Virus record (IMG/VR): IMGVR_UViG_3300045135_002287
Location: 1-30,927 of that record
Source: a virus
DNA: 30,927 nt
Reading direction: 5' to 3' (one strand)
Positions 3,403 to 30,927 of the stretch are shown piece by piece (position 1 is the first letter of the stretch; each line of letters starts with the position of its first letter). The notes beneath the pieces are model-generated. The model was not told the origin of the DNA. It did no database searches and saw only the letters and a program-made list of their open reading frames with translations. The position numbers and the translations under genes are program-made.

Positions 3403-3445
3403 ATTTTTATTCCTTTATTAGGGTTAATTAATTGTTATAGGTCAT

Positions 3446-3474
3446 AGTATATAGTAGTTAGGAAAAAAAGTCAA
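3446..3474 (-). promoter_or_regulatory. Sigma70-type promoter upstream of tail chaperone/tape measure
   Basis: On the minus strand TTGACT (3474-3469), a 17-base spacer and TATACT (3451-3446), each one base off consensus. Predicted transcript start is near 3439, leaving a leader of about 37 bases with an AAAGGAA ribosome site before the ATG at 3402. It lies just after the terminator that closes the major tail gene, so it gives the chaperone and tape-measure genes their own transcript. Confidence 0.75.
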
Positions 3475-3498
3475 GAACTTTTTTTCAAAGGTACTTAA

Positions 3499-3526
3499 AA
3501 ATAAAGGGGCAAAAGCCCCTTTATTT
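3499..3526 (-). terminator. Rho-independent terminator after major tail protein gene
   Basis: A perfect 12-bp stem (3526-3515 with 3510-3499) has a TTTT loop and a core of GGGGC/GCCCC. The AT-rich outer part of the 3' arm and the following bases supply the U-rich tail (CCCCTTTATTTTT). It begins 15 bases after the stop codon of the major tail gene. The stem is almost symmetric, so it could also act on the opposite strand, but no gene is present there. Confidence 0.85.
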
Positions 3527-3540
3527 ATTATACTTATTTA

Positions 3541-7134: not shown

Positions 7135-9204
7135 TTATGCTACGTTATTTTTCTTAACGTATACAGCTGCTGTTTTACCAGACTGACCGGTGAACATTTC
7201 ATGGAAACCCAAGTGCTGAGTAGCGACGATTACACGACGCTGTGCAGCTACTTCGTAATCCTGCTCAACATTCACACCACGTAAACGAGGAATAGCATAG
7301 TTGCGAGTATTTACAGCGATAGCGCCTGCTTGACCGTCTTCAACTTCAGCAGGGAAGTTATCAGATACAACAACAGGAGAGCCGTATACCGCACCAACAA
7401 GACCAGTAATTTTCAGAGCCATGTCTGAACCTACTTCGTTAATGTTAGTAAACTCAACGTCTTCTAACAAATCATAGTAACGTGACTGGCTAACAATGTA
7501 AACGATGTCTTGAGGATTCATGCCATATACACCCATGGCTGCACGAGCTTTAACAAGATCAGCTGCAGTAAGTTTATCTGCACCGTCAGTAAGCTGAGTA
7601 CCAAAAGTAATGCCAGAATCTAAAGCGTAGCCTGTATTACCAAGACCATCTGCTAAGAAGCCTTTTACGCCAAGACCGCCATTACCTTGAATAATAGCTT
7701 TGTCTACAGCGCGAGCATGTGCACGAGCAACACCTTCAACCAACATAGGCATTAAGTTAACAAGTACTTCTTCATCTACATAGTTATCCATGTAGCTAGT
7801 AGAAATCAAACGCTCAACGTTCAATACTGTCTGACGAGCAGCAAAAGTACCTGCTGAACCACCACGGTTAGCAAGACCAGTAGTATCGCCTGAACCAAGT
7901 GCAGACTCACCACCAGAACTCCATACTGCTGTTTCAACATCTGACTGAAGAGGCATAACAGTAGTTTTTGAGCTTACTGGAATCTCACGGAAAAGAGCAG
8001 CAGTGCGCAACTCAAGCTGAATTTCCTTCTCAATCATAGTAGAAACTTCAGTAGCAAGATTAGCTAGATTATCAGTAGTACCTGCAGGGTAACTTACGCT
8101 AGCTTTTTCGAATACTTGACGAGCATAATCAGTATCCCAGCCTTTGTTTGTCATAACACCCAACATGTGAGCATACATAAATTCTTTGTTGCCAGCAATT
8201 ACGCCTTTTTCGCCGCGATCGGCAAATACACGCTTGCTTTCACGAATTTTAGTAATTTCTTCGTTTTTCTCAGCCAATTGAGCGCCAAACTCTTTCAACA
8301 CTTCACTTAGCTTAGCGTCTTTTTCGTTCAAACGCTTTTCAAAATCTCCTAACAACTGCTCTGTGCCTGACTCGATGCCAGTACGAATAGCTGAAGTGAC
8401 TTCTTCTTCTTTAGCAGCTTTTGCTTCTGCTTCAGCAGCAGCTTTTTCTTCTGCTTCTTTTGCGGCTTTTTCAGCTGCGGCTTTTTCTTCGGCTTGCTTC
8501 ATTGCGATTTTAGCAGCAGTTTCCTCTGCCACCTTTTTAGCAAATGCTTCCAAGTCGATTTCTGGAGTTTTAACTTCAGACATTTTGATCTCCTGTTGAG
8601 CGGTGTCCGCTCCATATGGTGAGTCACTAGCTACGCTCGATGCTTTAACATCTTCTTTAGCCAGAGACTGACCGGCTAGATCTTCACGATTGGTTAATTT
8701 AAAGGTTTTTTTGAATTCTTCGTACTCTTCCATAGAGTCAAAAGACTTCGATAGTGAGAAAGTTGCTGCCTGATTGCATGGTACCGAAACAACCGATACT
8801 TCAAACAACTCAGCATCCTTAATCTTTAATCCGTCAGTTTCCTGAATGTAATCAGCATCCTTGACTCGGAAACCAACAGAAAATGCTCCAAGGATACCTT
8901 CTTTAACTAGTTGTGCAACATGATCTGGTGCTGACTTTGAGATTTTTGCTTTAAGCTCTAATCCTTTATCAGTTACTTTTAATCCAGTTGCACGTCCGAT
9001 TGGTTTATCATAATTATGATTAAAAAGAATAATCGGATTTTTTTCAAAATTATTTAATCCACCTTTTGTCCAGGCTTCTGCCATAATGACATCGTTTGCA
9101 CGATCTTGATCGGCGGTACTTGCCATCCCACAGATATGAACGCTTCCATCCTCGTCTTCGTTCAACGCTTTAAAGGTAGAAGTAAGATTAAATATCTTTT
9201 CCAT
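7135..9204 (-). CDS. Prohead protease-major capsid protein fusion (HK97 type)
   Basis: One open frame of 689 residues from the ATG at 9204 (GGAG nine bases upstream). An in-frame ATG at 9234 lacks a comparable site and would add ten residues. Residues 1-150 are an HK97-type prohead protease (family U35). Likely catalytic residues are His63 in LFNHNYDKPIGR and Ser109 in ILGAFSVGFRV, with the conserved ELFEVSVVSVPCN strand at 132-144. Residues ~150-207 are a linker. Residues ~208-315 are an Ala/Glu/Lys coiled coil, matching the scaffold-like delta domain. The rest is the HK97-fold capsid protein, with segments such as ALFREIPVSSKTTVMPLQS, VLVNLMPMLVEGVARAHARA and TRNYAIPRLRGVNVEQDYEV. A strong internal ribosome site at 8594-8581 could yield the capsid protein alone. 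The capsid part uses codons such as CGT, GGT, ACC and TTC, unlike the AGA-rich, AT-ending usage of its neighbours, as expected for very high expression. Confidence 0.93.
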   Translation of the reverse strand: MEKIFNLTSTFKALNEDEDGSVHICGMASTADQDRANDVIMAEAWTKGGLNNFEKNPIILFNHNYDKPIGRATGLKVTDKGLELKAKISKSAPDHVAQLVKEGILGAFSVGFRVKDADYIQETDGLKIKDAELFEVSVVSVPCNQAATFSLSKSFDSMEEYEEFKKTFKLTNREDLAGQSLAKEDVKASSVASDSPYGADTAQQEIKMSEVKTPEIDLEAFAKKVAEETAAKIAMKQAEEKAAAEKAAKEAEEKAAAEAEAKAAKEEEVTSAIRTGIESGTEQLLGDFEKRLNEKDAKLSEVLKEFGAQLAEKNEEITKIRESKRVFADRGEKGVIAGNKEFMYAHMLGVMTNKGWDTDYARQVFEKASVSYPAGTTDNLANLATEVSTMIEKEIQLELRTAALFREIPVSSKTTVMPLQSDVETAVWSSGGESALGSGDTTGLANRGGSAGTFAARQTVLNVERLISTSYMDNYVDEEVLVNLMPMLVEGVARAHARAVDKAIIQGNGGLGVKGFLADGLGNTGYALDSGITFGTQLTDGADKLTAADLVKARAAMGVYGMNPQDIVYIVSQSRYYDLLEDVEFTNINEVGSDMALKITGLVGAVYGSPVVVSDNFPAEVEDGQAGAIAVNTRNYAIPRLRGVNVEQDYEVAAQRRVIVATQHLGFHEMFTGQSGKTAAVYVKKNNVA
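8581..8594 (-). promoter_or_regulatory. Internal ribosome-binding site and start for stand-alone capsid protein
   Basis: Inside the protease-capsid frame the minus strand reads CAGGAGATCAAAATG: AGGAG at 8594-8590, six bases, then ATG at 8583-8581. Starting here gives MSEVKTPEIDLEAFAKKVAE and a 482-residue product consisting of the delta-like coiled coil plus the capsid domain. This is a better ribosome site than that of several separate genes in the window. It falls exactly at the boundary between the protease linker and the coiled coil. Confidence 0.8.
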
Positions 9205-9511
9205 CTTTTTTCTCCACAGCCTTAGGCTTGGCAAATACGGGCTTAGCTTTTGGCTTTACCTCTGGACTTGCCGTTTTAATTACCGGTTTCGGCTGTTTAA
9301 CCGGTTTTTTATAAACATCAGGATAATATCGCTCTAGCTGTGCCAAAGCTCTTAACCAGTTGTTAAATTGCTTTTTAATTGCTCTAAATAATACAGGATC
9401 TTCTGCTCTACCATAGTATTCTTCGTACTCTGGACGATAGGTAAAACCTGCCTTTTTAAAATCCGTATAAAGCTTTCTTAAAATTAAAGTTCTTACTCGT
9501 GCCGTTGGCAT
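9188..9511 (-). CDS. Small basic protein of unknown function between portal and protease
   Basis: A 107-residue protein starting MPTARVRTLILRKLYTDFKK, with AAGGAGAT six bases before the ATG inside the end of the portal gene. Residues 1-68 look folded and helical with many aromatic residues (YRPEYEEYYGRAEDPVLFRA, WLRALAQLERYYPDVYKK). Residues 69-107 are a Lys/Pro/Val tail of low complexity. The gene overlaps the protease-capsid start by 17 bases, so translation is probably coupled. I do not recognise the family. Its position suggests a head-assembly accessory, but that is inference only. Confidence 0.7.
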   Translation of the reverse strand: MPTARVRTLILRKLYTDFKKAGFTYRPEYEEYYGRAEDPVLFRAIKKQFNNWLRALAQLERYYPDVYKKPVKQPKPVIKTASPEVKPKAKPVFAKPKAVEKKDGKDI

Positions 9512-13955: not shown

Positions 13956-16661
13956 TTAATAATCTATGAGTACTTCATAGCTTCCGCTTTGTGTATAGCC
14001 AGTATCTGGAATAAAGTCTTCTGCTCTTCCAAAATAAGTGACCCCGTTGATGTCGAAAAACCCTAGCTCTGTAATATCTGGCACAACTATAGCTATTTCT
14101 GCTAAAAATGGGGTGACAGAACTGAAAGTAAGTAAATCTTTTTCTATAGAAATTTTAGTAGTTAAAATAGTAGATTCTACTAAAGTATTTGATACCGGTT
14201 CTTTTACTATAAAGTTTAGTGTATAAGGAGTAGAATAAGTTGCTCCCGTTAATAGTTTATTCACAGTAAAAGAAAAAGTAGGTTCTATTTCAGACAGAAT
14301 ATTAGTAGTAGAAGTGTGAACAGTTTCTGCGCTTTCAATAGAAACACTTAGTTTCTCTAGTTCTGTATCATTAATCAAAGGCGCAGGGAGAGAAAGATAT
14401 ATTATATTTGACTCGCTAATAGAGTTATACTCCGGGAATATAAAAGCAGTAGCACCTTTAGTAAAAGGCTCTACTAAAACGTAGTCTGCCGTTCTTGTTA
14501 CTATATTTTGAGTAATTCTTACTTCATCCAGGTAGCCATTTAAGGGACGAGAGCTGGCAGCAGCAGGAGATTCCCCAATATACAAAGGAGAAGTGCTAGT
14601 ATGAATTCCCGTAGGGGCTGCAATAGTATCTTGCAAAACTGCACCTACTGCTTCTAGCAGGGTTCCTGTGCTCCAATCATATAGTCCTTCTACAAATTGA
14701 ACATTTATGGCTGTTTCATACATTATAAAATAAGCTTGCGCAGCTGTAGTACTAGAAATTGGAATAACTAACGAGGGAGGATCGTTAGCGGAGGGAAAAG
14801 AGTTTGACGCCCATGTTCTAACCTCTTGAGCATATCTATCATAATGAAATAAATAGTACGTAGTTGAAGGAACTCCAGCAAGTAAAGCGTTTCCTGAGTT
14901 TAAAAACCAAGTAAGGCCTGCTTCAATTTGATATTGATCAGAATAAACGCTATTAAGTAGACGAATGCCAAAAGATCCGTAAGGATGTTGTCCTTCAAAG
15001 CCTGCTCCTCCTGTAATTGTCATTAAAAATGAACAAGTATCTGGCAAAGTCTCTGTGCTTATATCTCCAACATTCCAACCCTGAGCAGTAGTAGTATAGG
15101 TGTCAGAGCTAGTAGTTGGCCACGTTCCTGTAAAAGAAAGCAAAACAGGATTAACTACACTTGTATCAGTTAGGAATAATTTTATATCTGTTCCGTCATA
15201 TACTAAAGATAGGTAATTCCAACTACCGGACGATACAGTAGCAGTAGAACTTAGCACTACTCCCTCATTCAATGCTCCACTACCTCCTACAGATGCTTTG
15301 ATAGTTTTTGTTACACTATCAAAGTAAATAGAATATTCTCCTAAACTTACTCCATTTTGCTCATCTTTGCTAATTAAAACTTGATCTGTATCTTCAGAAT
15401 TAAGATAAAATGCGAGTTCTATTGAAAAAGGAGTGCCTTCAGATACTTGTAGAGAAGTATCATTTAATATTACTAAATGAGAGCCTGGCTGTCCATTGAA
15501 TTTTAATGAACCTTCTTCCCTAAATACTTGCTCTGCTGAAAGTTCTACTACTCCAGAGGATGTAATTTCATGCTTTTTCTCTGAAAGATCCGTTATAGAA
15601 GTTGCATCATATGTTCTAGGTTCCATATCTAGCAGTAATGATACATTAGCAAATGGAAAGTCCTCTACAAAAGGAACACTAGAGATTCCTATATACTCAT
15701 ATCCTGGTGGAATTTCATAAACAAAAGGAGTTCCTCCAAAATTCCAAGTACCATATCCAGTTACCCCTGAAGAAGCATCACACATAGACAAAAATAATGG
15801 AGGATCTATAGTACCGTCATCGGGAAAAGGTAAAAAAGGCTCGTTGTTAAAGGATATCTGTTTATTATCAAAATCTATTAATATAGGGTACCATTCATTT
15901 AAAGGATATCCTATATAGTTTGTTTGGACCCCGCCATTGCCATTTACACCCGTACCTCCATGGTAGTTACCTACTCTAGTGGGGGTAGTTTGTATTCCTG
16001 GTATCATAGCATATGTTGCAGTAGAATAATGTTCTAAATAATATTTTCCGCCAATAGCTTGTAGAGCTGCTAAATCCCATAAAGCAGTAGCAAACTTCCC
16101 TGTAGAAGTTGCGGTTAAATAATCAGAAGAAATAGATAATGAAGCTCCGCCACTTAGATCTGCTCTATAAGGTAGAGTTTCATAGCTTTCTGACTCAAAA
16201 TACTCATTTGTATCGAAACTAATATTCGCAAGGGAAACCTCAAAAAGTGCATTATCTAATAATGTATCATAATCTGACGTTCTATTAAAATAATCAGAGT
16301 CTATAGATATAGGAAACTCTGTAATAGTAATATCTGAAGTTACTACAGTATTTGTAACAGTTCCATCAGATAGAAAAACTCCCTTAGTTGAAATATCTAA
16401 GGGAATTGTCTCAATACCTTTTACAAATGTATCCATAAAAGAAGAAGTTAAAATTCTAGAGTACTCTCTTTCTTTATCTATAGAAATTGAATATACCTCT
16501 ATAGTACTTTCTATAGTGTTTATACTATTTTTTACTAAAATTAAAGTATTCACACTATTTTCTTCTAAGTAAAAAGGTTGCTGCTCCAAAGGCGTAGGAG
16601 CAGTTCCTCTGTTTATAGAAATAGTTTTAGTTACAGATTGTACATCAATAGACGGATTCAT
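13956..16661 (-). CDS. Large virion adhesin with SPRY-like and LamG-like domains
   Basis: A 901-residue, beta-rich protein. Residues 1-180 are unassigned strands. About 185-325 resembles a SPRY domain: GKYYLEH, YIGYPLNEWYPILIDFDN, KQISFNNEP, then YGTWNFGGTPFVYEIPPGY. From about 338 a concanavalin A/LamG-like domain begins (FANVSLLLDMEP, GSLKFNGQPGSHLVI, FSIELAFYLNSEDTDQVLIS, WNYLSLVYDGTDIKLFL). It is interrupted at about 527-657 by another beta-rich segment and ends with LYIGESP and LNGYLDEVRITQNIVTRTADY near 690-730. Residues 735-901 are further strands, with SGSYEVLIDY at the end. Both fold types bind sugars or proteins in other phages, so surface recognition is likely. The ATG follows the previous stop by two bases without a Shine-Dalgarno sequence, indicating translational re-initiation. 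Confidence 0.85.
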   Translation of the reverse strand: MNPSIDVQSVTKTISINRGTAPTPLEQQPFYLEENSVNTLILVKNSINTIESTIEVYSISIDKEREYSRILTSSFMDTFVKGIETIPLDISTKGVFLSDGTVTNTVVTSDITITEFPISIDSDYFNRTSDYDTLLDNALFEVSLANISFDTNEYFESESYETLPYRADLSGGASLSISSDYLTATSTGKFATALWDLAALQAIGGKYYLEHYSTATYAMIPGIQTTPTRVGNYHGGTGVNGNGGVQTNYIGYPLNEWYPILIDFDNKQISFNNEPFLPFPDDGTIDPPLFLSMCDASSGVTGYGTWNFGGTPFVYEIPPGYEYIGISSVPFVEDFPFANVSLLLDMEPRTYDATSITDLSEKKHEITSSGVVELSAEQVFREEGSLKFNGQPGSHLVILNDTSLQVSEGTPFSIELAFYLNSEDTDQVLISKDEQNGVSLGEYSIYFDSVTKTIKASVGGSGALNEGVVLSSTATVSSGSWNYLSLVYDGTDIKLFLTDTSVVNPVLLSFTGTWPTTSSDTYTTTAQGWNVGDISTETLPDTCSFLMTITGGAGFEGQHPYGSFGIRLLNSVYSDQYQIEAGLTWFLNSGNALLAGVPSTTYYLFHYDRYAQEVRTWASNSFPSANDPPSLVIPISSTTAAQAYFIMYETAINVQFVEGLYDWSTGTLLEAVGAVLQDTIAAPTGIHTSTSPLYIGESPAAASSRPLNGYLDEVRITQNIVTRTADYVLVEPFTKGATAFIFPEYNSISESNIIYLSLPAPLINDTELEKLSVSIESAETVHTSTTNILSEIEPTFSFTVNKLLTGATYSTPYTLNFIVKEPVSNTLVESTILTTKISIEKDLLTFSSVTPFLAEIAIVVPDITELGFFDINGVTYFGRAEDFIPDTGYTQSGSYEVLIDY

Positions 16662-18713: not shown

Positions 18714-21700
18714 CTATTCATACGTAAATTTAACTGTTAAGTTACTTGCAGAGCCTGTTATAATGTCAACAGATATTTGTTCTGTTGTAAGTAAGGTATT
18801 TGATGTAAATAATCCACTAACTTCGGTTTCCCCTGGAGGAATAGCAAATTGTTGAAACTCTACGCCATTTCTCATAACAGAGAATACTAAAGTTAAAGGC
18901 TGCGCTAAGTCTATAGTTGCTTTTAACTCTAAAAGTCTCATAGTTTGTGGCGGCTGGAAGAAGGTAGTACCTTCTAAAGGACCCGTAAAGCTTCCGGCTC
19001 TGACTAAATAGAAGCTGTTGGTTCTGTTTACATCTAACCATTCGTTACCGTCATAGATGTACAATCTCTTGTTTTCTTCTATGAAAGCTAAAGATCCAGT
19101 ATCTGCTAAGTTTGGTAAACTTGTAGACAAGGGATATACTGCTACGGCTGCGGGACGATTTACAGGCTCCCACACACCTTCATTATATTGTAGATATTGA
19201 CCTGTCTGAGCATTTGCTACGTCAGTATCTGTTAAAGCATTTAAAGTAGAGGTTAAGTTCCCAGGTACCCATGCATTTGTTTCCCAAATTAGTACTTGAC
19301 CGTTATTTGGGTTTTGATTAATATTTACATCTGGAATATCAGATAATGACTCTATTTGAATATCTGCAGGAGACCATTTTAAGCCGTTAAATACTAACGC
19401 TTGTCCAGTAGAAGGTACTACAGTTGTAGTGTCTACATCAGGTAAATCATCAATTGAAGTAAGTGCTAAATCTCCAGGAACCCAGGCTGAACCATTCCAA
19501 ACTAAACCCTGTCCTAAATCAGGAACATTAGTAGTAGTGTCAACATCAGGAAACTCATCTATAGTTTGAAGCTCAAGTTGAATTGTTTGAGGCTGCCAAG
19601 ATAATCCCTTCCATACTAGTGCCTGCCCTATCGAAGGAAACGAAGTAGTAGTATCAACATCGCTTAAATCATCTATAGATCCTACTAAAGTACCACTTCC
19701 GGTGCCAGATCCTGAGCTTTTAGTTACCGAAACATAAAGCTCTGTATCAGAAATTGCAACACCAATAGGCCCAAGATCGGTTTCTATTGGAGTTAACGAG
19801 CCAAACTTGTTGACATAATATGTTGCGCCGAAGATTAAAGGTGAAGAACTATTATATATTCCGCCCTCGGTAACTACCTCATAAGGACCTACTCCAGCTA
19901 CGATAGGCTCATTTAAGATACCTATTATATTAACGTTCGAAGGAGTAGTAACAATAATATCTTGAGTTTCTATAAAATGAACGTTGTTATCTGTCGACGA
20001 ACCAATAATAATAAAATCATCTGTAACAGCGCATACCTGACCAAACCGTCCGGAAGTATAGTAAGGGTTGAGCCAGTAATACAAAGTATTTCCTGACACA
20101 GCATCTATATAGTAAGCTCCTCCAGATACATTCAAATAACCAAAACCGGAAGGATTAACTTGATCTCTTCCAGGAGCTCCTACTAATACATTATCTCCGT
20201 GTAAAGCTACCGAACTACCAAAAGCGTCTCCAGCTTGGTATTGGGGAGAAGTTCCAGTATAGTCATTAATATAACCTCCAGTAGATACATCGTATATATT
20301 TACTCTTCCGGTATCGCCCTGGCTATTAGTATCTGCTAAAGGAGCCCCTACAGCTAAATATTTATTATTAACAGCTACCGAGTAACCGAACTGAGCACCT
20401 CCAGCATACGCAGGAGTAACCTTATTTATAAGACTAACTTCTTGAGTTTCTGAGTTGTATCTATATAAATAAGCTGCCCCATTTCCTTCGAGGTATGCAC
20501 CAATAGCTATATACGTACCATTAAATGCTACCGAATTACCAAAGTAAGCATAAGAAACACCTGCGGGCCCATCAAATGTATGAATTACTTCACCAGTAAA
20601 TACGTTTATTAAATGCGCTTTTCCTTCAAAACTAGATCCAGCTCTATAAGCGCCTACTACTGCTAACTCTCCATATAATGCTACTGAAAAGCCAAAATAG
20701 GACTGCTCCTCAGGTATTGGGTTTGCTATAGTATTAACTAAATCTCCTGTTAATACATCGTATAAATAAACTTCTCCGCTGTTTGTAACTGCCGCTGCGG
20801 TATTGTCGGCAGCCATACCACCTATTAATACGTACTGACCTTGTAAAGATATTGATCTTCCAAAAGCTATATTAGCCTGTGGAGAGTTAATATATCGATA
20901 TACTGATCTATCTCCGGAGTTTAAAATTACAACTTGTTCTTCTTCAGTACCTACTGCCGCAAGAGTTCCAGATACAGATACCGAAACGCCAAATTGATTT
21001 ACAGTTCCTAAGCTTCCTGTATATGAGGTACTATATATAGTTGGAGTATTTGGATCTACATAAGGTACTAATTTTTGTATAGAACCTTCTGTATTTATAC
21101 TAACAATAGATCCTTCCGTTATAGGAGTATCTTCAGTAGTATAGTTTTTTATTCCTTGATAAAGATATTTATTCTCCCACTGAGATAAGTCTTCGCTCCA
21201 AGATAGAATGTTATATTTATTTAAAGAAGGAACATCTATAGTTACATCTGTTAAATCATTTATAGCATAGTCTACAGTAGTATTTACCCATCTGCCAAGA
21301 GCATCATCCCATTGAATAAATTGATTTGGCTGTAGATTCGTAATATATAAATCTGACAAGTCATTTAAAACATCTACATTACTACTACCTACTGCAGCAG
21401 GTGTCCAAGTACCGCTAAGCCAAAGTAACGCTTCTCCTTCATTAGGGGTAGAAGAGATTGTAACGTCAGATAAGTCCCCAGTACTTACTACATCTGAGAC
21501 ATAACGAGCGTCCCATTTTGTGCCATTCCATACAAGTCCAGAGCTTGGAACTACAGAAGAAGTGAACTCTACGTCAGTTAAATCAGAGAGAACAGATACC
21601 GGATTTAAAGCATTTGATAATAAAAGTTCTGTACCAGATATAGCTACACCAATAGAGCCGTATTCCGTAGCAGAAGTAGTTAAAGCACCAGTAGAAGTTA

Positions 21701-24700
21701 CATAATAGACAGATCCTGGAGCTAAGGCTAAAAAGCCTTTTGCTACTGAATTATTTAAATATACTTCTCCAACTGTGCCTATATTTATCGCATCTGCGGC
21801 TACACCAATCCACTCTCCAGCATTCGAAGTAATTGCAGTATCTGCAACGTCATATACGTAAGCAGCTCCTGCATTTGTTACTGCCCCCGCATCTTCTGCG
21901 TAAGCTCCGACAACTAACTTATTTTCAGTGTTGATACTTACTTGAGAAAAGTAATCATTAGTAGCAATATTAGAAGAGTTCTTATTTTCAAAATAATTGT
22001 AAAGAGAACCATCAGATAAGTTGTATATATAAACGATCCCAGCTCCTGGCTGGCTGTCTGAGTTTTCATCCAAAGAAGATATAACCAATCTATCGTTTGA
22101 TATAGCTAAATCAGTTCCGAAGAAATCGTCTACAGTGTCTCCATTTGGATTAGGATTAACAATGGTATAAACCGGAGCAGTAGTGTTAGATAAATCGTAT
22201 ACAAAAACGGTTCCAGAAGTGCCTGAAGATAGCCGAGAAGACACTGCTAAGTAGTTTTCATTTATTACAATTGATTCTCCAAACCCAGTTGCCGCAGCTT
22301 CTGGATTATAAATTGTAGTAAATAAAGAGTTGTTGTTTCTACTAAATAAGTACACTACTCCAGTCGATGTTCCGGAAGCACTGTCTTCTGTAGGTGCAGA
22401 TACTGCTATAAATGTATTATTTAAAGCTACTGAACTTCCAAATCTGTCTCCCTGAACTACATCATACGCATTTGGATTGCTAAACGTATGAAGTAGTGTA
22501 CCGTTTTCAACATCGTATAAATAAGCTCTTCCAGACTGTGTTCCATCAGTATCTGATTCGGGGCAGCCCACAATTGCTCTTGTTCCAAGTAAATCTATAG
22601 ACTGGCCAAAATCAGAATAAGAATCTGCAACAGGATTATTGATTGCGTGTATCTGAGTTCCAGTGTTTGTTCGGAAAATTTCTATTCTTCCAGACTGAGT
22701 ATACTTTCTTGGAATACCTACGATAATATAATCATCACTGATTACAAGCTCTTGGCCAAATAAATCATAACTACTTGGAATACTTGATACTAAAGAGTAG
22801 AGTAGCTCCTGATTATAAAGATTGTATACAAAAACTTTTCCAGCATCTATGCGAATATTCCCAGATACATTAACATTAATATTTGGGGCTGATACTGCGA
22901 AATAACTAGTAGAAGCAGCTACTTTTGTTCCAAATGCAGCGCTTGTTTCTGGTTCTGGATTTAAAATTGTAGAGATAAACTTTCCAGAACTTACAGAAAT
23001 AGGGGCTATTTGACCCGTAGGTTCTAAAACTACTACTTCCTGAGCTTGTATATCGGCCGAAGCAAAAAATAGTCGAGAAGCTCCCTCTGGAAGATCTGCA
23101 GGAATCCATTTATTCCCAAGGGCGTCCCAAGACAGTACTTGATTATCTTGAGGAAGATTTGTTAATGTGTCTACATCAGACAAGTCACTAATATCAGCGA
23201 CATTACTTGTTCCTGCCTGTGAAGGTTCCCATGCTTGAGTAAGGGCATTCCATGCAAGAACTTGTCCAGAAGATATTGTTCCTGAAGTATTTACATCTGT
23301 TAGATCGTCAATTGATTGTATATTTGAAGTTACTATACCAGGAACCCAAGATACTCCATTCCAGACTAAACCTTCTCCAATTGTAGGCGTCGAGCTAGTA
23401 GTATCAACATCTGATAAATCATTAATCTTAGTAACACTATCTGCCGTATTAGACTCAATATCTCCAGTTACTAATAAATCAGTATTTGATAAAGCTTTAC
23501 CTACGATTCCAAAATCTGTAGGAGTAGATACTATTGAGCCAGTATTTGTTAGATAATAATTTGAGCCAGGTAATAAGCCTGACTGAGCCGTTGAGACCCC
23601 GCCTGGCAGTATGACTGAGGCAGTATTGTTTTCTACCACTGACTCTTTTAAGAACCCTATCCAGTTTGAAGCATTTGATGTTGCATTTAAATTAAATACG
23701 TAAGCAATACCAGAGTTGTAAAATATAGTGTCTTGAATATTTACATACTCTTCTACAGAAGTAGTTACGAGCGCTTTATTTCCTAGTAACTCTAAACAAT
23801 CTCCTATACCATCATTTACTGGCGTAAAATAACTGTTTGGATTTTCAAATGCTGTTATAACTTCGTATGTAGTAGCATCTATTAGGTATACTAAACCTGT
23901 AAAGTTACCGCTATAAGAATCCTCGCCTCTTGCAGAGACTAAAATATTGTTTCCAAGTATTCTTACTTCTTCTCCAAAATAGTCGTAGCTAGTCGTAGAG
24001 TAGAAGTTTGGATTTGCTATCTCAGTTATTTTTTCTAGTGTATCAAACCTAAATAATTGAATAAGCCCACCATATTGATAGGACTCTACATAAGCCCGTG
24101 GAGCGCCTACAACTAAAATATTATTATATATTGATAAAGACTGGCCGAAATTAGAAGAATGCGAAGCATCTGATATAGAACTACTAAAGGGTATGACTCC
24201 TTCCGATGTTCCAGTACTGATATCAAAAACTTCTACATTTGCTAAATAATTAGCACCGCCTTTTGCACCTACCGCTAGTCTTCCGTTTTCATATGCTAAA
24301 GCTGATCCAAAGTATAAATCATCGGTACCGTAACCTAAAGTAGGCGCTAAACTTCTGATAAAATTACCTGTAGTAGAATCAAAAATTGTTACTCGCCCTG
24401 TTTGTATAGCGGAGTTAGAAGTATTGTAAAGTACCTGTCCTACTACCAAGTATCCGTCTGGAGTTAAAAGTAGTGAATCATATCCCCAATAATAATTATA
24501 ATCACTAGTGGTAGGGTTTTGAATTTCATGTATTAAATCTCCTGTAACATGATTAAATATGTAAACAACTCCCTCTCGATAAGCTCCTCCTTCTATGGGG
24601 GCGCTAATTGCAACTAATGGCCCCTGAATAGAAACTAGATGTCCGAATCTATCACCATTAGAAGAAAATAAAGAAGCTTTAGGGTGTCTTATAGTTCTTA

Positions 24701-27700
24701 GCAGTGCAAAAGACGAAGCATCATAAATATACACCGCCCCTGTATCTGCTCCCCCTAACTCATTAATTTCTTCAGGGGCGCCTATAGCTAAGTAAGTCTG
24801 ATCAGTAGAAGTAGAGTACCCAAAAAAGTCGCTTGAAGGAGTGCCTGTAGCATTTGGGTTATCTAATACTAACTCCAGGTTACCGGGTCGTATCTGTACT
24901 GCTTCTATATTTCCGGCTGGAGTTATAGCTACAGGAGTTCCTGCTGATATACTTTCTATAGCTAGAAACTTTCTAGTGTCTCCAGTTAGTCCATCTGAAG
25001 ATATCCACTTATTTACTGAAGAGTCCCAAGAAAGCAAATCGCCTTCAGAGGGAGGAAACCCTGCAATATCTACGTCTACTAAATCATCTAAAGACGAAGC
25101 ACCCCCACCTGCAGAAGATGAGTTTATCCACTTAAATCCATCCCAAAGTAAACCTTGACCAACAGTTAAAGTTCCAGAATCTATATTAACATCTTGTAGT
25201 TCTGAAATACTTGCGCTTGATACAGAAACATCTCCAGGAATAAACTTCTCATTTATAAAATCCCATACAAGAGACTGTCCTGCCATTGGAGGTATTGTAG
25301 TTATGTCAACATCGTTTAAGTCATCTATACTATTAATGCTAATTGCACGAATATCTGTAGGTAACCATGTTTGGGTAATTTCATTATACGCAAGTACTTG
25401 AGCAGAAAGCGCAGGAGTAGATAAATCTACATTAGATAAATCCTCCATGGAAAAAACATAAGAAACTGTAGTAGGCTCCCAACGGCTTTCTGTTTCATTC
25501 CAAGAAAGAACCTGCCCTGGTAAAATTGGCGTTTCTAACTCGGTATCTATAAATACATCATTTAAAGACTCTAAAGTTACTCGACCTACTTCTGTACTTG
25601 CAACACCTGTCCAGTAACCCTGACTTTCTACATAAATAAGTAAGCTATTATTTGCAGGCGTTAAGGTTGGGTTTATATCTATAAGATCTGTAAGCTGAAG
25701 AGTTCCAGGACGTATAAATTCTATATTTGTCCAGTTTGCTCCATTCCATCCTATAGCTTGCCCTTCTGCTACAGTCTGCGTGTAGGCTACGTCTATTAAA
25801 TCTCTTAAATAGGTAACATTACTATAGCCTATAGTTTTAGGCTCCCACAAGCCTAGTGTAGCATTCCACACTAGACCCTGATTATTTTTTGGAGGAGTCG
25901 ATCTAGTATCTACGTCAGTAAGATCTGTAATTTGTGTTATTTCAGCCTCTGATGAGATAGCTCCAACTATGTAAAGATCGGTATCTGATAATGCTTTTCC
26001 TATAATACCGTAGTCAGTATAGGTAGTAGTTAAACTCCCATCCTGAGTTAAGTAATACAGCTCATTTTGTATAAGATTAGCTTGATTAGTACTTATACTG
26101 CCTGTTAATAATACTTCTACTACTTCTCCTGTAGATACAGAGCTATTAGCTATGCCTAACCAATCGTTTGCATTTGTAAGTATCTCAGAAGAAGAGTCAA
26201 ATAAATATGCCTTTCCTACTTGAGAAATAGCGGAAGGAGAATTCAGCAGAGGAGCTGCTGACATAAAATAACTAGCTGAAAGCGATACTTTATTTCCAAA
26301 CCCTACATTTGACGTATTAGAAGGATTCTGTATAAATAGTTTTAAGGTACCAAAATTAGGATCAAATAAATAAACAGTACCGGTATCAGAAGCTCCATCA
26401 GCGACATCCTCGCCGGGCGCACCAACAGCAAGCCTTTCTTCCGTTAAACTTAACGAGTAACCAAAATTATCATAGCTTTCAGTTCCAGCAATGGTAGGAT
26501 TTAAAATAGTTCTTAGTAGTCCTCCATCACTAATATCATAGATGTATACTATGCCTGAGCCTAGTCGAGAGCCTCCTGCAGGAGCAGCTATGCTTTCGTT
26601 ATAAGCACCTACAGCGAGTTTTGTAGCGGACAACGCAACAGAGAATCCAAAGTAGTCTTGGTTTGGAACTCCCGCTGCTGTGTGAGAATTTGGATTTTCT
26701 AGGCTGTATAATAATGAACCATTAATAGGTGCGTAAATATATACCTTTCCAGAATTGCCGTTATAGAATGGAGAAGAAATTACTAAGTACTGAGAGGCTT
26801 CGCTTAAAGAAAAAGAAGATCCAAACTGATGGAAGTCTTGAGGCTCTGGGTTTACTATTTTTCGTAGTAAACTTCCAGAGGAAGCTTCAAAAATATAAAC
26901 TACACCAGCAGCTTGTTTTATACTACCTTGTGAATCAATTACATCTTCTTTTGGCGCAGCTACTATCAAATAGGTATTATTTAATACAATATTCTTTCCA
27001 AACTCATCTCCTTCTGAAGTCCCTGAATCGTTTGGATTTTGAATAGTATATAAAAGATTTCCGCTTGTATTATCGTATACATATACTACACCAGATGAAG
27101 TATAAGTTACTTCTTGACCAACAGGGCCTACTGTTTTAGTTTCTGTATAGGCGCCTACAGCAGAATATAACGAAGAAACGGCGCAAGAATATCCGAAGTA
27201 GTCAGTATCGCTATCACCATCTATATTTGGATTAATAAATGTATGAACAGGATTTACCAAATCAGCAGGAGTATATAAGTAAGCAGCTCCCTGGAATCCC
27301 GTACTGGAAGGGCTACCTATAATTATGTAGGACTCATCTTCTGAAATATCAAAAGATTTACCAAACTGTAAGTTAGCATCTTGTAATGGAGAATCTATTG
27401 AACTTAACAGTGCCGAAGTTGAAATACTAGCAGAGACAGGCGATACAGTAGAATCAGGATTAAAAGCTACTATATTGCCTGCTGTTATGTTTTCAGCAGC
27501 TATAAATGTTGTTGCCCCTTGTCTATCTTTTGGAGACCAGACTCCTAGTGTATTATCCCACTGAAGTACCTGTCCAGGAAGAGGTGCATTTGTAGTAACA
27601 TCTACGTCGCTTAATACATCTATCCCAATATTTATTACAGCGCCTTCTACATTTGTTGCTATCCACTTTCCGCTGTTTTCATCCCAAGATAGAAAATCTC

Positions 27701-30700
27701 CGTCTGATTTAGTTGTAAAATCAGTATCTAAAAGACCTTCTAAAATATTTGTTCTATATTCAGGTCTCCAGCCACCCGATCTCCAAACTAAAGAATATCC
27801 CTCTCCTCTATAAAGTGGAGACTCTGGATCACTTGTGTTAAACTCTACTACATCAAATAAATCTTCTATATATTGAACAGGTCTGCTAGAAGTCCATTGA
27901 GAGCCATTAAATGTCAGTACTTCACCGGCCTCTGTGCTGTTATAGAAAACATTGGTTAAATCGGTTAACGAAATTGAAGGCGTGCCATTTCTCCAGCCTC
28001 CAGAACCATATACCAAAGATTGTCCTGTTTGTAGGCTACTACCATAGAAAACATCATCTAACTCGTCGAGACTTTTTCTATAGGGCTGGGGCTTCCATGT
28101 CTCAGAGGCTACATCCCAAGCAAGCGTTTTGCCTTCTAAATTTGATCCTACAGCATAATCAAAGTCTACTAAATTATAGTTGTATACTTGCAAAGGACCA
28201 GACTCCCATAAAGAAGTCTCTTCGTTCCAGAAAATACCGTCATTGGTAGAAGGATTGAGAGCGTCTACATCTCCCAAACCATCTAATAGATCTGGAATTT
28301 GCAAATCCCTTGCAATCCACTTTTGAGAGGCAAAGTCCCACGTTATTAATTGACCTTCTCTTAAAAGGCTTTTTGTAATATCAACGTCTTTCAGTGATGT
28401 AAAAGCAATATCTACATTTGCAGTACTTTCTATCTCTGCTCTTACAAATAGTATATCTCCAGCGAACAAGGTTACTTGACTGCTAATGCTTATAGTTTTT
28501 CTGTCTTGACTTATGTCCGTAATTACTGGAGGAATCTCTAAACCAGTATTTAATATAAAATTGCCTACAGCTACTTCATTATCTGCAGCGGATAATAAAG
28601 GAATAGTAAATGAATTAACTATATCGTAGTCTACTATCAAGAACCCTGAGTTACTTACTTGGGTTACTGTACCAAAAGTTAATTTTTGACCTGCAACAAC
28701 TGTTATTGTTCTATCAAGTGTAATAGTTAGTCTATCACTGGATAAACCACTAACCACGGGCTCAGGAAACAGGCCTGTACCTAAAAGTGCTAATCCAGGA
28801 ACAACTTCTTCTAGAGCGGGCTCTGTAATCTGAATAATAGTGCTAGTAGCATCGAAAGCAACTATATGAATTTCTGCTGGAGGAGCTACCTCCTCTTCCA
28901 CTATCTGCGCAAATCCTAGTTGATCGCCGGTACTTACGGTAACTGGGTCACTTACAGTAATACTTAATCTATTAGTAGAAATAAAAGTTACTTCAGGGTC
29001 AGTCGCATTACCTGTGTTTTGCAATAAATATCCCAAGTCGACTGCAGGATCTATTGGAGTAGTAAATGTAATAACTGTTCCAGCAAGTACATCTGAAGCT
29101 ACAACATGCAGCTCTTCAGTCCCCCCTACTTCAGGGCTTTCTACTGCTTCTGCAAAGTCTAAAACGTCGCCTGCAGTTACTGCTACTGCTCTATTTACAG
29201 TAATAAGATCTCTATCTAAGTTAATGCTGGTTATTTGTATGTCTTCTGCACTACCAGTATTTAAAACTAAGTCTCCGATAGAAATAGCTGCATCCAGAGG
29301 ATCTACAAAATAAATAAAAGTTCCAGAAGTAGTAAACTCGACAGTACCAGGAGAAACGGGTACTCCTGGAGAAGATTCTACAGGCGTTTCCGTTATTTCC
29401 ACAAAGGATAGTTGTGTGCCTGGAGCTACGGAATCTTCAGCTAATTCCGCATTAATAACAATAGTTTTTCTGTCAAGAGATATTGCTTCTACTTTTACAA
29501 GAGTACTAACGCCTAAATTTAATACATAAAGACCTACTACCACTTCCGCTTTTAAAGGAGTAGTAAAGGTTACAGTTGAGCCTATTGCGCTTTCAACAAT
29601 ATTTATCTCTTCGGGCTCTGGTAGAGGCACTACTGTATTTTTTGCAAACTTAACTTGGAATCCTGCAGGAATACTTACTGGCTCCGAGATAACTATTGTA
29701 GTTCTTGAAAGGTCAATAGTATCAATAGTCGGATATGGAGTTATACCTAAGTTAATTAAAAAAGTGTCGGTAATAACAGCAGCATCTAAAGGCTGTGTAA
29801 AAGTAATAGTATTTGAGTTAAATACTTCAGCAGCTACAATATTTTCTTCTGGTGGTTCCTCTACTGGATCAATAAGTACAGGTGTTGCAGCTACTACAGG
29901 ATCTCCTGCAGTTACATCTACAGGGGCGCTTAAGCCGATGTTAAGTCTTGTGCCATCAATTGCTATAATTGAAGGAGGAACTGCCTCTCCTATTATATAA
30001 AGAGAGTCACCAATTTTAACGGTTTCTGGAGCAGGGCTTTCAAGAGTGACTAAAGTGGTGTTAATCGCAGTTGTAGCAATTACCATTTCACCCGTAGGTA
30101 AGGGTGTAGTAGTCTCTCCGCCAGTAGTATCTTGTTCAAGTACTACTTTTTTCGGAATCCAGTTAGATCCGTTCCATACTAAAGCATAGTTTTGTTGTGG
30201 TGCAATAGTCTGAGTATCTACGTCAGAAAGCTGATTGATTCCACCAGAAATACTAACATTTCCGGGAACCCATTGATTTAGTGAAGCATTCCATTTTAAT
30301 ACTTGATTTGGAGCTGGAGGGCTAGTAGATACGTCTATTAAATCTTTTGTTCTTGATACATCACTGCTGCCTACTTTTTGAGCTCCCCAGAAATCTCCTT
30401 TCCATACTAAAGCATAACCAGGAACTTTTGGGTATAGGCTAAAATCTACATCGAACAATTGTCCAAGAGATGTTGAAATAGTAACAGGTTTTGCTTCCCA
30501 CTTGTTTAAGTAGGAGTTGTAGCTCAGTACATTATTTTGTTGAGGAGTATTTGGTATATAAGTATCTGTTAGGTTTTCTACGCTAAACTCCACCGGAGTG
30601 TATACATTATTTGTGGAGTTCCATATAAGTACATCATTTGCAGTAGGGGACGTAACACTGTCTACGTCTGATAGATTTTTAATTGTTCCGCTTACAGAAA

Positions 30701-30927
30701 TCTCTTTTGGAGTCCATCGTAAGTTTACAGCATCCCAAGCAAGATAGTCTCCAAAAGTTGGAGGATTTGCGCGTACATCAACATCTTGTAATTCTCCAAG
30801 AGATTCAGCCCCTCCGCTTACGTCAGGGTTCTGAGAGATATCTCCAGTAATTATAAGCTTTGTTTGACCAATTGCTTTACCTACAATACCACTCGAAGTT
30901 GGAGTAGTTGTAACCATTCCAGTGTAG
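18714..30927 (-). CDS. Giant multi-propeller repeat protein, tail-fibre or surface adhesin (5' end outside window)
   Basis: The frame is open to the right edge, with at least 4070 residues visible. The ATG at 30917 is internal: in-frame codons Tyr-Thr-Gly precede it, and YTGMVTTTPTSSGIVGKAIG aligns with internal copies such as TNTGSIVSTPTDFGIVGKAL. Order (residues counted from that ATG): remnant of a split fibre domain; six ~38-residue DVDTT repeats (36-275); seven ~80-residue beta repeats (275-832); eight DVDTT repeats; propeller 1 (1169-1584); eight repeats; propeller 2 (2012-2419); three repeats; propeller 3 (2641-3037); four repeats; propeller 4 (3291-3666); five repeats; C-terminal domain (3922-4067). 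Each propeller sits inside a copy of the split domain. Cys and Met are very rare, and there is no internal signal peptide or membrane segment. Position among late virion genes suggests a fibre or adhesin; no enzymatic motif is seen. Confidence 0.9.
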   Translation of the reverse strand, partial: YTGMVTTTPTSSGIVGKAIGQTKLIITGDISQNPDVSGGAESLGELQDVDVRANPPTFGDYLAWDAVNLRWTPKEISVSGTIKNLSDVDSVTSPTANDVLIWNSTNNVYTPVEFSVENLTDTYIPNTPQQNNVLSYNSYLNKWEAKPVTISTSLGQLFDVDFSLYPKVPGYALVWKGDFWGAQKVGSSDVSRTKDLIDVSTSPPAPNQVLKWNASLNQWVPGNVSISGGINQLSDVDTQTIAPQQNYALVWNGSNWIPKKVVLEQDTTGGETTTPLPTGEMVIATTAINTTLVTLESPAPETVKIGDSLYIIGEAVPPSIIAIDGTRLNIGLSAPVDVTAGDPVVAATPVLIDPVEEPPEENIVAAEVFNSNTITFTQPLDAAVITDTFLINLGITPYPTIDTIDLSRTTIVISEPVSIPAGFQVKFAKNTVVPLPEPEEINIVESAIGSTVTFTTPLKAEVVVGLYVLNLGVSTLVKVEAISLDRKTIVINAELAEDSVAPGTQLSFVEITETPVESSPGVPVSPGTVEFTTSGTFIYFVDPLDAAISIGDLVLNTGSAEDIQITSINLDRDLITVNRAVAVTAGDVLDFAEAVESPEVGGTEELHVVASDVLAGTVITFTTPIDPAVDLGYLLQNTGNATDPEVTFISTNRLSITVSDPVTVSTGDQLGFAQIVEEEVAPPAEIHIVAFDATSTIIQITEPALEEVVPGLALLGTGLFPEPVVSGLSSDRLTITLDRTITVVAGQKLTFGTVTQVSNSGFLIVDYDIVNSFTIPLLSAADNEVAVGNFILNTGLEIPPVITDISQDRKTISISSQVTLFAGDILFVRAEIESTANVDIAFTSLKDVDITKSLLREGQLITWDFASQKWIARDLQIPDLLDGLGDVDALNPSTNDGIFWNEETSLWESGPLQVYNYNLVDFDYAVGSNLEGKTLAWDVASETWKPQPYRKSLDELDDVFYGSSLQTGQSLVYGSGGWRNGTPSISLTDLTNVFYNSTEAGEVLTFNGSQWTSSRPVQYIEDLFDVVEFNTSDPESPLYRGEGYSLVWRSGGWRPEYRTNILEGLLDTDFTTKSDGDFLSWDENSGKWIATNVEGAVINIGIDVLSDVDVTTNAPLPGQVLQWDNTLGVWSPKDRQGATTFIAAENITAGNIVAFNPDSTVSPVSASISTSALLSSIDSPLQDANLQFGKSFDISEDESYIIIGSPSSTGFQGAAYLYTPADLVNPVHTFINPNIDGDSDTDYFGYSCAVSSLYSAVGAYTETKTVGPVGQEVTYTSSGVVYVYDNTSGNLLYTIQNPNDSGTSEGDEFGKNIVLNNTYLIVAAPKEDVIDSQGSIKQAAGVVYIFEASSGSLLRKIVNPEPQDFHQFGSSFSLSEASQYLVISSPFYNGNSGKVYIYAPINGSLLYSLENPNSHTAAGVPNQDYFGFSVALSATKLAVGAYNESIAAPAGGSRLGSGIVYIYDISDGGLLRTILNPTIAGTESYDNFGYSLSLTEERLAVGAPGEDVADGASDTGTVYLFDPNFGTLKLFIQNPSNTSNVGFGNKVSLSASYFMSAAPLLNSPSAISQVGKAYLFDSSSEILTNANDWLGIANSSVSTGEVVEVLLTGSISTNQANLIQNELYYLTQDGSLTTTYTDYGIIGKALSDTDLYIVGAISSEAEITQITDLTDVDTRSTPPKNNQGLVWNATLGLWEPKTIGYSNVTYLRDLIDVAYTQTVAEGQAIGWNGANWTNIEFIRPGTLQLTDLIDINPTLTPANNSLLIYVESQGYWTGVASTEVGRVTLESLNDVFIDTELETPILPGQVLSWNETESRWEPTTVSYVFSMEDLSNVDLSTPALSAQVLAYNEITQTWLPTDIRAISINSIDDLNDVDITTIPPMAGQSLVWDFINEKFIPGDVSVSSASISELQDVNIDSGTLTVGQGLLWDGFKWINSSSAGGGASSLDDLVDVDIAGFPPSEGDLLSWDSSVNKWISSDGLTGDTRKFLAIESISAGTPVAITPAGNIEAVQIRPGNLELVLDNPNATGTPSSDFFGYSTSTDQTYLAIGAPEEINELGGADTGAVYIYDASSFALLRTIRHPKASLFSSNGDRFGHLVSIQGPLVAISAPIEGGAYREGVVYIFNHVTGDLIHEIQNPTTSDYNYYWGYDSLLLTPDGYLVVGQVLYNTSNSAIQTGRVTIFDSTTGNFIRSLAPTLGYGTDDLYFGSALAYENGRLAVGAKGGANYLANVEVFDISTGTSEGVIPFSSSISDASHSSNFGQSLSIYNNILVVGAPRAYVESYQYGGLIQLFRFDTLEKITEIANPNFYSTTSYDYFGEEVRILGNNILVSARGEDSYSGNFTGLVYLIDATTYEVITAFENPNSYFTPVNDGIGDCLELLGNKALVTTSVEEYVNIQDTIFYNSGIAYVFNLNATSNASNWIGFLKESVVENNTASVILPGGVSTAQSGLLPGSNYYLTNTGSIVSTPTDFGIVGKALSNTDLLVTGDIESNTADSVTKINDLSDVDTTSSTPTIGEGLVWNGVSWVPGIVTSNIQSIDDLTDVNTSGTISSGQVLAWNALTQAWEPSQAGTSNVADISDLSDVDTLTNLPQDNQVLSWDALGNKWIPADLPEGASRLFFASADIQAQEVVVLEPTGQIAPISVSSGKFISTILNPEPETSAAFGTKVAASTSYFAVSAPNINVNVSGNIRIDAGKVFVYNLYNQELLYSLVSSIPSSYDLFGQELVISDDYIIVGIPRKYTQSGRIEIFRTNTGTQIHAINNPVADSYSDFGQSIDLLGTRAIVGCPESDTDGTQSGRAYLYDVENGTLLHTFSNPNAYDVVQGDRFGSSVALNNTFIAVSAPTEDSASGTSTGVVYLFSRNNNSLFTTIYNPEAAATGFGESIVINENYLAVSSRLSSGTSGTVFVYDLSNTTAPVYTIVNPNPNGDTVDDFFGTDLAISNDRLVISSLDENSDSQPGAGIVYIYNLSDGSLYNYFENKNSSNIATNDYFSQVSINTENKLVVGAYAEDAGAVTNAGAAYVYDVADTAITSNAGEWIGVAADAINIGTVGEVYLNNSVAKGFLALAPGSVYYVTSTGALTTSATEYGSIGVAISGTELLLSNALNPVSVLSDLTDVEFTSSVVPSSGLVWNGTKWDARYVSDVVSTGDLSDVTISSTPNEGEALLWLSGTWTPAAVGSSNVDVLNDLSDLYITNLQPNQFIQWDDALGRWVNTTVDYAINDLTDVTIDVPSLNKYNILSWSEDLSQWENKYLYQGIKNYTTEDTPITEGSIVSINTEGSIQKLVPYVDPNTPTIYSTSYTGSLGTVNQFGVSVSVSGTLAAVGTEEEQVVILNSGDRSVYRYINSPQANIAFGRSISLQGQYVLIGGMAADNTAAAVTNSGEVYLYDVLTGDLVNTIANPIPEEQSYFGFSVALYGELAVVGAYRAGSSFEGKAHLINVFTGEVIHTFDGPAGVSYAYFGNSVAFNGTYIAIGAYLEGNGAAYLYRYNSETQEVSLINKVTPAYAGGAQFGYSVAVNNKYLAVGAPLADTNSQGDTGRVNIYDVSTGGYINDYTGTSPQYQAGDAFGSSVALHGDNVLVGAPGRDQVNPSGFGYLNVSGGAYYIDAVSGNTLYYWLNPYYTSGRFGQVCAVTDDFIIIGSSTDNNVHFIETQDIIVTTPSNVNIIGILNEPIVAGVGPYEVVTEGGIYNSSSPLIFGATYYVNKFGSLTPIETDLGPIGVAISDTELYVSVTKSSGSGTGSGTLVGSIDDLSDVDTTTSFPSIGQALVWKGLSWQPQTIQLELQTIDEFPDVDTTTNVPDLGQGLVWNGSAWVPGDLALTSIDDLPDVDTTTVVPSTGQALVFNGLKWSPADIQIESLSDIPDVNINQNPNNGQVLIWETNAWVPGNLTSTLNALTDTDVANAQTGQYLQYNEGVWEPVNRPAAVAVYPLSTSLPNLADTGSLAFIEENKRLYIYDGNEWLDVNRTNSFYLVRAGSFTGPLEGTTFFQPPQTMRLLELKATIDLAQPLTLVFSVMRNGVEFQQFAIPPGETEVSGLFTSNTLLTTEQISVDIITGSASNLTVKFTYE
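18717..19150 (-). other. C-terminal domain of the giant protein
   Basis: After the last DVDTT repeat comes a short unit LADTGSLAFIEENKRLYIYD followed by GNEWLDVNR. This is a motif common near the end of phage fibre proteins, where it reads like a small beta hairpin. A ~100-residue beta domain then closes the protein (SFYLVRAGSFTGPLEGTTFF, LELKATIDLAQPLTLVFSVM, SVDIITGSASNLTVKFTYE). It may be the tip or a trimer-forming cap. Confidence 0.6.
19110..19690 (-). repeat. DVDTT repeat block VI (about 5 copies)
   Basis: Copies read SIDDLSDVDTTTSFPSIGQA-LVWKG, TIDEFPDVDTTTNVPDLGQG-LVWNG, SIDDLPDVDTTTVVPSTGQA-LVFNG, SLSDIPDVNINQNPNNGQVL-IWETN and a divergent fifth. Period is 34-38 residues. These are the best-conserved copies in the protein, which suggests recent duplication at this end. 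Confidence 0.85.
19918..21043 (-). other. FG-GAP-type seven-bladed beta-propeller 4 in the giant protein
   Basis: Seven blades are marked by NQFGVSV, IAFGRSI, SYFGFSV, AYFGNSV, AQFGYSV, DAFGSSV and GRFGQVC. Most are followed by an AVGA or VGAP strand and a VYLYD- or VNIYD-type strand. The flanks TEDTPITEGSIVSINTEGSI and NVNIIGILNEPIVAG to IGVAISDTELYVS are the two halves of the split host domain. Confidence 0.85.
21155..21605 (-). repeat. DVDTT repeat block V (about 4 copies)
   Basis: Divergent copies, for example SVLSDLTDVEFTSSVVPSSG, STGDLSDVTISSTPNEGEAL, DVLNDLSDLYITNLQPNQFI and INDLTDVTIDVPSLNKYNIL, each followed by a Trp-containing strand. Confidence 0.8.
21806..22995 (-). other. FG-GAP-type seven-bladed beta-propeller 3 in the giant protein
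   Basis: Blades are marked by AAFGTKV, DLFGQEL, SDFGQSI, DRFGSSV, TGFGESI, DFFGTDL and DYFSQVS, with inter-blade strands such as GVVYLFS, GTVFVYD and GIVYIYN and the connecting NPN/NPE turns. It is inserted between ASADIQAQEVVVLEPTGQIA and AGEWIGVAADAINIGTVGEV. Confidence 0.85.
23078..23440 (-). repeat. DVDTT repeat block IV (3 copies)
   Basis: Three well-conserved copies: TKINDLSDVDTTSSTPTIGE, QSIDDLTDVNTSGTISSGQV and ADISDLSDVDTLTNLPQDNQ, each followed by LVWNG-, LAWNA- or LSWDA-type strands. This is the shortest spacer between propellers. Confidence 0.85.
23660..24880 (-). other. FG-GAP-type seven-bladed beta-propeller 2 in the giant protein
   Basis: Blades are marked by DFFGYST, DRFGHLV, YYWGYDS, LYFGSAL, SNFGQSL, DYFGEEV and DGIGDCL. 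Blades 3 and 7 have lost the exact FG pair but keep the spacing. The insertion lies between ESISAGTPVAITPAGNIEAV and ASNWIGFLKESVVENNTASV. Confidence 0.83.
24982..25955 (-). repeat. DVDTT repeat block III (8 copies)
   Basis: Copies include TQITDLTDVDTRSTPPKNNQ, NSIDDLNDVDITTIPPMAGQ, SISELQDVNIDSGTLTVGQG and SSLDDLVDVDIAGFPPSEGD, each with a following WN/WD strand. Together they form a long spacer between propellers 1 and 2. Confidence 0.83.
26165..27410 (-). other. FG-GAP-type seven-bladed beta-propeller 1 in the giant protein
   Basis: Blades are marked by LQFGKSF, DYFGYSC, DEFGKNI, HQFGSSF, DYFGFSV, DNFGYSL and VGFGNKV, with strands LAVGAYN, LAVGAPG, GVVYVYD, GIVYIYD and GTVYLFD. Acidic turns before some FG pairs (for example DGDSDTDYFG) could bind metal, but the full integrin calcium loop is not present. 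Flanking halves are ENITAGNIVAFNPDSTVSPV and NDWLGIANSSVSTGEVVEVL. Confidence 0.85.
27517..28432 (-). repeat. DVDTT repeat block II (about 8 copies)
   Basis: More divergent copies, for example TSLKDVDITKSLLREGQLIT, SLDELDDVFYGSSLQTGQSL, SLTDLTNVFYNSTEAGEVLT and DVLSDVDVTTNAPLPGQVLQ. All keep the aliphatic-Asp-Val core and the later Trp strand. Confidence 0.78.
28420..30095 (-). repeat. Seven tandem ~80-residue beta repeats in the giant protein
   Basis: Seven copies share the pattern I-V-A, TVxFTxPLxAAV, xGxxLLNTG, xxVTxISxDRxTITVSxPVTV, xAGDxLxFAxxVE. Copies are joined by acidic proline linkers such as PVEEPPEE, PLPEPEE and EEEVAPPAE. The pattern resembles small beta modules (VGMxVxGTGI to TVTLS to LTF) that I recall from large surface proteins. 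It interrupts the DVDTT blocks and has no propeller. Confidence 0.8.
30096..30810 (-). repeat. DVDTT repeat block I (about 6 copies)
   Basis: Copies include SLGELQDVDVRANPPTFGDY, TIKNLSDVDSVTSPTANDVL, RTKDLIDVSTSPPAPNQVLK and GINQLSDVDTQTIAPQQNYA, each followed by a WN- or WD-containing strand and a short linker. Confidence 0.82.
30811..30927 (-). other. C-terminal half of a fifth split domain at the window edge
   Basis: YTGMVTTTPTSSGIVGKAIG followed by QTKLIITGDIS matches the C-terminal halves that follow each of the four propellers (for example TQDGSLTTTYTDYGIIGKAL then SDTDLYIVGAIS). The matching N-terminal half, and presumably a propeller, must lie to the right of the window. Confidence 0.75.

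Follow-up and report, generated by a model that had tools for sequence, protein, structure and literature searches.

How is a phage protein of more than four thousand residues built from repeated propellers, and what would such a chain be used for? The question is raised by the contig IMGVR_UViG_3300045135_002287 from a marine virus of bacteria, which is cut at both ends and whose 30,927 bases, all analysed here, are referred to as the window. The main genes of the contig all lie on the minus strand. Starting from the giant ORF, they comprise a 92-aa ORF, a 586-aa protein, a 901-aa LamG protein, two short ORFs, a 257-aa protein, the terminase, an HNH protein, the portal, an apparent protease/capsid fusion, adaptors, the major tail protein and the start of a tape-measure-like protein. 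The terminase showed 84-94% identity to the terminases of 80 other viral contigs and about 50% to its best matches in cultured phages, which we take to be T5-like. The ORF that apparently fuses the prohead protease with the major capsid protein (window 7135-9234) corresponds to separate genes in the annotation of related Vibrio phages. The LamG (concanavalin-like, lectin-like) domain of the 901-aa neighbour (window 13956-16661) marks this protein as another possible adhesin.

The giant ORF stays open up to the contig end, with no stop upstream, and the first ~28 residues of its product (YTGMVTTTPTSSGIVGKAIGQTKLIITG) match the HMM of the C-terminal half (C-half) of the scaffold domain described below (E=4.3e-8). 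The chain therefore exceeds 4,070 residues and includes a fifth scaffold domain at least in part; four propeller heads are present in the window, and five or more are probable for the complete protein. Rod repeats of the pattern LxDVD..W (32 by rod HMM count, in six blocks around the units) and N-terminal beta repeats fill most of the protein outside the units. The seven beta repeats at residues 279-834 (window 28416-30083; ~75 aa each) are divergent. The parts of the protein are listed in Table 1.

Table 1. Parts of the giant protein, with positions in the window and the evidence for each part
Feature	Position	Strand	Evidence or remark
Giant fibre-like protein	18714..30917	-	4,067 aa counted from first ATG in window; open at contig end, true N-terminus outside
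Fifth scaffold domain, truncated C-half (YTGMVTTTPTSSGIVGKAIGQTKLIITG...)	30834..30926	-	C-half HMM, E=4.3e-8
Seven beta repeats, about 75 aa each, residues 279-834	28416..30083	-	Alignment
Rod block, LxDVD..W repeats, residues 835-1131	27525..28415	-	Rod HMM
Unit 1 N-half of scaffold domain, residues 1132-1165	27423..27524	-	Own HMMs
Unit 1 seven-bladed FG-GAP_2 propeller insert (predicted)	26163..27422	-	Pfam, blade HMM, AlphaFold2, Foldseek, VIA-align
Unit 1 C-half of scaffold domain, residues 1586-1652	25962..26162	-	Own HMMs; Pfam match of joined halves
Rod block, residues 1656-1979	24981..25952	-	Rod HMM
Unit 2 N-half, residues 1976-2010	24888..24992	-	Own HMMs
Unit 2 propeller (putative), blades 3 and 7 weak	23664..24887	-	Blade HMM
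Unit 2 C-half, residues 2419-2485	23463..23663	-	Own HMMs
Rod block, residues 2489-2609	23091..23453	-	Rod HMM
Unit 3 N-half, residues 2609-2644	22986..23093	-	Own HMMs
Unit 3 propeller (putative), blade 7 weak	21813..22985	-	Blade HMM
Unit 3 C-half, residues 3036-3102	21612..21812	-	Own HMMs; Pfam match of joined halves
Rod block, residues 3106-3252	21162..21602	-	Rod HMM
Unit 4 N-half, residues 3252-3287	21057..21164	-	Own HMMs
Unit 4 propeller (putative), blade 7 weak	19929..21056	-	Blade HMM
Unit 4 C-half, residues 3664-3732	19722..19928	-	Own HMMs
Last rod block, residues 3736-3920	19158..19712	-	Rod HMM
C-terminal end region, residues 3921-4067	18717..19157	-	Sequence only

An earlier note on this DNA had described a fourfold succession of a half-domain, seven FG-GAP-type blades and the other half, with the units spaced by rod-like repeats and 28 blades in one chain. 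Pfam, the rod HMM, a blade HMM built from the giant protein itself and half-domain HMMs also built here recovered each of these elements. The blade HMM detected four sets of seven blades (residues 1181-1595, 2028-2414, 2658-3027 and 3306-3645); in units 2-4 the seventh blade is weak, in unit 2 also the third. All four units consist of an N-terminal half (N-half), an insert within the range of 350-490 aa and a C-half; the inserts of units 1-4 are 420, 408, 391 and 376 residues long. Shuffled and reversed copies of the protein gave no comparable matches with the blade or half-domain HMMs. Pfam FG-GAP_2 (PF14312; curated cut-off 23) matched the giant protein over 18 stretches with 331 bits (E=4.4e-101). 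An artefact of repeat misassembly was set aside, since the four units, at only about 30-38% mutual identity, are not copies made during assembly.

The AlphaFold2 model of unit 1, computed from 20 aligned window and locus sequences, reached a pLDDT of 83 and a pTM of 0.78. A Foldseek search with this model retrieved integrin alpha heads (E about 1e-16), and VIA-align superimposed the model on these heads with Z 37-38 and an rmsd of about 2.7-3.0; the matches at Z 38 had an rmsd of 2.7-2.8 over ~364 residues. The aligned range of the model, residues 36-454, is the inserted stretch, which indicates that the ring closes inside the split domain. Unit 1 is thus predicted to contain an integrin-type, closed seven-bladed propeller exactly over its insert, as the earlier note had anticipated, and the sequence repeats assign seven-bladed propellers to units 2-4. 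Although the unit 1 model shares its seven-bladed fold with the integrin alpha head (VIA Z about 38), the identity is about 16%, and the blades of the giant protein come without a cell-membrane context. The calcium motif DxDxDG, which characterises the lower blades of integrin alpha chains, occurs in none of the blades, and the single match to a relaxed pattern lies at residue 2541, within a rod repeat.

The joined halves of units 1 and 3 matched the Pfam profile Phage_cement_2 (PF09956) across the joint with 22.8 bits (E=1e-4) and 20.7 bits (E=5e-4) respectively, whereas the joined halves of units 2 and 4 gave no match to this profile. As the scores fall just under the curated cut-off of 24, we call the domain cement-like; a relative, L094, lies above the cut-off with 30.8 bits. 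In addition, phrog_4368 was matched by the joined halves of all four units across the joint (E 2e-7 to 0.04). In a control with the two halves in swapped order, Phage_cement_2 scored 22.1 bits compared with 22.8 in the right order, and the C-half alone scored 17.2; most of the Pfam score thus comes from the C-half, and the case for a single domain rests mainly on homologues without insert. Such homologues are encoded at loci L142 (121 aa) and L151 (125 aa), together with insert-bearing proteins, and carry the N-half and the C-half directly adjacent to each other. The L142 protein scores with Phage_cement_2 and phrog_4368 and the L151 protein with Phage_cement_2, and the former aligned end to end with the joined halves from the window (blastp E 4e-8 to 8e-14). 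The model of unit 1 showed strands at good confidence in both halves. The two flanking halves therefore probably form one domain that is interrupted by the propeller, and the suggestion that they constitute a small phage domain when adjacent holds for the L142 and L151 proteins.

We surveyed 72 viral-contig stretches picked by the C-half motif G[ST]TYYVxxDG[ST]L. On 54 contigs, these held 100 units interrupted by an insert of 360-486 aa (median 377) and four uninterrupted ones, counts that are biased to one branch of the domain by the single selecting motif and do not represent a true frequency. Both forms of the domain thus exist in viral contigs, and within this motif-selected sample the earlier claim that it usually has no insert is contradicted. 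The surveyed inserts contain another repeat ('VGTVSGTSISFG', the 'GTVSGTSISFG' propellers), most often seven per insert; FG-GAP_2 blades were found in none of them, and they represent a different propeller family. Since the AlphaFold2 model of L094, computed from a two-sequence alignment only, reached a pLDDT of 36, the propeller nature of this family rests on the seven repeats and on a BFVD match to ICBM2 gp49. This protein of the cultured Lentibacter phage vB_LenP_ICBM2 is annotated as hypothetical, and its gene lies among tail-fibre genes. Its predicted structure in BFVD matched the unit 1 model over the full length (558 alignment columns, E=3e-19). In gp49, as in the giant protein, an insert of propeller length interrupts the same loop of a cement-like domain; gp49 differs in having a single unit, a length of 515 aa and no FG-GAP_2 blades.

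Chains of several units were also found among the relatives. L164 (1,715 aa) has three units behind an initial Mtd_N, the domain that forms the N-terminus of a phage receptor-binding protein, and L133 and L169 have two units each. These 'GTVSGTSISFG' proteins (L164, L133, L169, L155) share the split domain, the insertion site and the seven repeats per insert with the giant protein, but they belong to the other propeller family, have at most three units per chain and use other N-terminal and linker domains. The beads-on-a-string arrangement, said in the earlier note to lack a described precedent, is hence not confined to this contig; in open-licence papers, a scope that makes this weak evidence of absence, we found no account of a propeller within a cement-like domain or of such units arranged in strings. 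Tandem genes, two or three in a row and each encoding one complete unit of split domain and propeller, were seen in L155 (347-4682), L154 (3-4461) and L163. The C-half itself is interrupted in 26 ORFs (L104, L106, L110, L115, L117 and others), either by a second propeller of ~355-376 aa or by a domain of ~100-110 aa (e.g. L119), which indicates that inserts can enter the scaffold domain at two loops.

Elsewhere among the examined proteins, FG-GAP_2 propellers are free proteins, often encoded by tandem genes, or single domains of larger proteins. L002 (362-6166) and L005 (7401-12295) each have four consecutive genes that encode one seven-bladed FG-GAP_2 propeller and little else, and a 5,896-aa ORF in L006 (2-17689) has a single one at residues 3343-3697. 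Such stand-alone phage proteins, which include a virion structural protein of cyanophage S-TIM5, have the same family and the seven blades in common with the giant protein; they differ in lacking the split scaffold domain and in not being fused into one chain. Several fragments of the same large viral proteins (BFVD: E5ERA2, A0A7S6NZ26, A0A345MNJ1) matched the propeller model, which suggests that other viruses also encode giant proteins with several propellers. When viral contigs were scanned with unit 1, with the N-terminal rod region and with the exact DNA pattern of the contig end, no relative or overlapping contig emerged; a genome-contig scan with the unit alignment yielded no relatives, and the joined halves had no tblastn match in cultured phages.

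We consider it fairly likely that the giant protein serves a tailed phage as a multi-headed tail fibre for receptor binding (adsorption). LxDVD rod repeats would form a backbone that carries small cement-like beta domains, and in each of these a complete integrin-type propeller would take the place of the loop that links the first beta hairpin to the remainder of the domain. The scaffold domain would keep its fold and project the propeller sideways as a binding head, so that four, probably at least five, divergent heads per chain could make many weak contacts with glycans or proteins of the cell surface. We infer that the protein is present in the virion, is located at the tail, forms an oligomeric fibre and binds receptors through its propellers. 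Among the matches of the rod repeats are phrog_677 ('baseplate wedge tail fiber protein connector') and annotated tail-fibre or tail proteins of cultured phages. Relatives encode variable large proteins upstream of the terminase, among them a Peptidase_S74 fibre (fibre chaperone) in L073. A fibre context is thus supported by repeats common to annotated tail-fibre and baseplate-connector proteins and by a fibre-type protein upstream of a relative's terminase. Mtd_N at the start of L164, the tail-fibre genes around ICBM2 gp49 and the LamG protein encoded close to the giant ORF also speak for it. A role of the propellers as binding heads is plausible: propellers are known or putative receptor-binding heads on the phage structural proteins phi11 Gp45, PRD1 P2 and PhiKZ gp131C, with five blades in phi11 and PRD1, seven in PhiKZ and one propeller per chain (PMC4901313). 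For these proteins, insertion into a cement-like domain is not described (PMC4901313). Together, the rod matches to tail proteins, the Peptidase_S74 fibre in a relative and the known propeller heads of phages favour a multivalent receptor-binding fibre.

The scaffold might point to another location on the virion, as its nearest Pfam family is a capsid cement family and not a fibre family, and it also resembles head-decoration PHROGs. The giant protein might accordingly decorate the capsid or neck, with the cement-like domains anchoring the chain on the head and the propellers attaching weakly and non-specifically to surfaces, and the position of its gene upstream of terminase, portal and capsid, not after the tape measure, would agree with this. 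We regard such a decoration fibre as unlikely, because the rod repeats match tail-fibre connectors and not head proteins, the region upstream of the terminase in relatives includes the Peptidase_S74 fibre, and the related three-unit protein L164 begins with Mtd_N. It is quite improbable that the propellers are structural spacers which bulk or stiffen a long fibre while recognition is left to the C-terminal domain or the neighbouring LamG protein; a separate C-terminal region and the LamG protein are indeed present, but the insert family varies between phages and the socket does not, as would rather be expected of exchangeable heads. Endosialidases are found among phage propellers (PMC4901313), yet there is little chance that the propellers are enzymes (e.g. 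glycan-degrading) and not pure binding heads, as their best structural matches are non-enzymatic integrin heads, their assigned family is FG-GAP_2 and the four units are strongly divergent.

Besides the receptor-binding fibre as such, a wider reading, to which we give an even chance, is that the cement-like domain serves aquatic phages as a general plug-in socket for the display of heads. It would have two domain-accepting loops, loop 1 taking a propeller and loop 2 either another propeller or a domain of ~100 aa, and unrelated propeller families would be swapped at the same site; the string on this contig, with four integrin-like heads and probably five or more, would then be the largest of those found here. 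The propeller string of the giant protein is the longest among those examined. Propeller-headed phage fibres are already known, whereas the plug-in arrangement, widespread in ocean phages, appears undescribed; among everything searched, the putative FG-GAP_2/integrin-type propeller in a cement-like socket and the presence of at least four units per chain are new. If this reading is true, phages own a reusable socket domain for displaying rows of large binding heads, and with it a natural way to achieve multivalent attachment, and proteins now annotated as hypothetical would gain a likely function. With different propeller families in the same loop across phages, uncultured marine phages would offer a direct test of how host recognition evolves in modular fashion.
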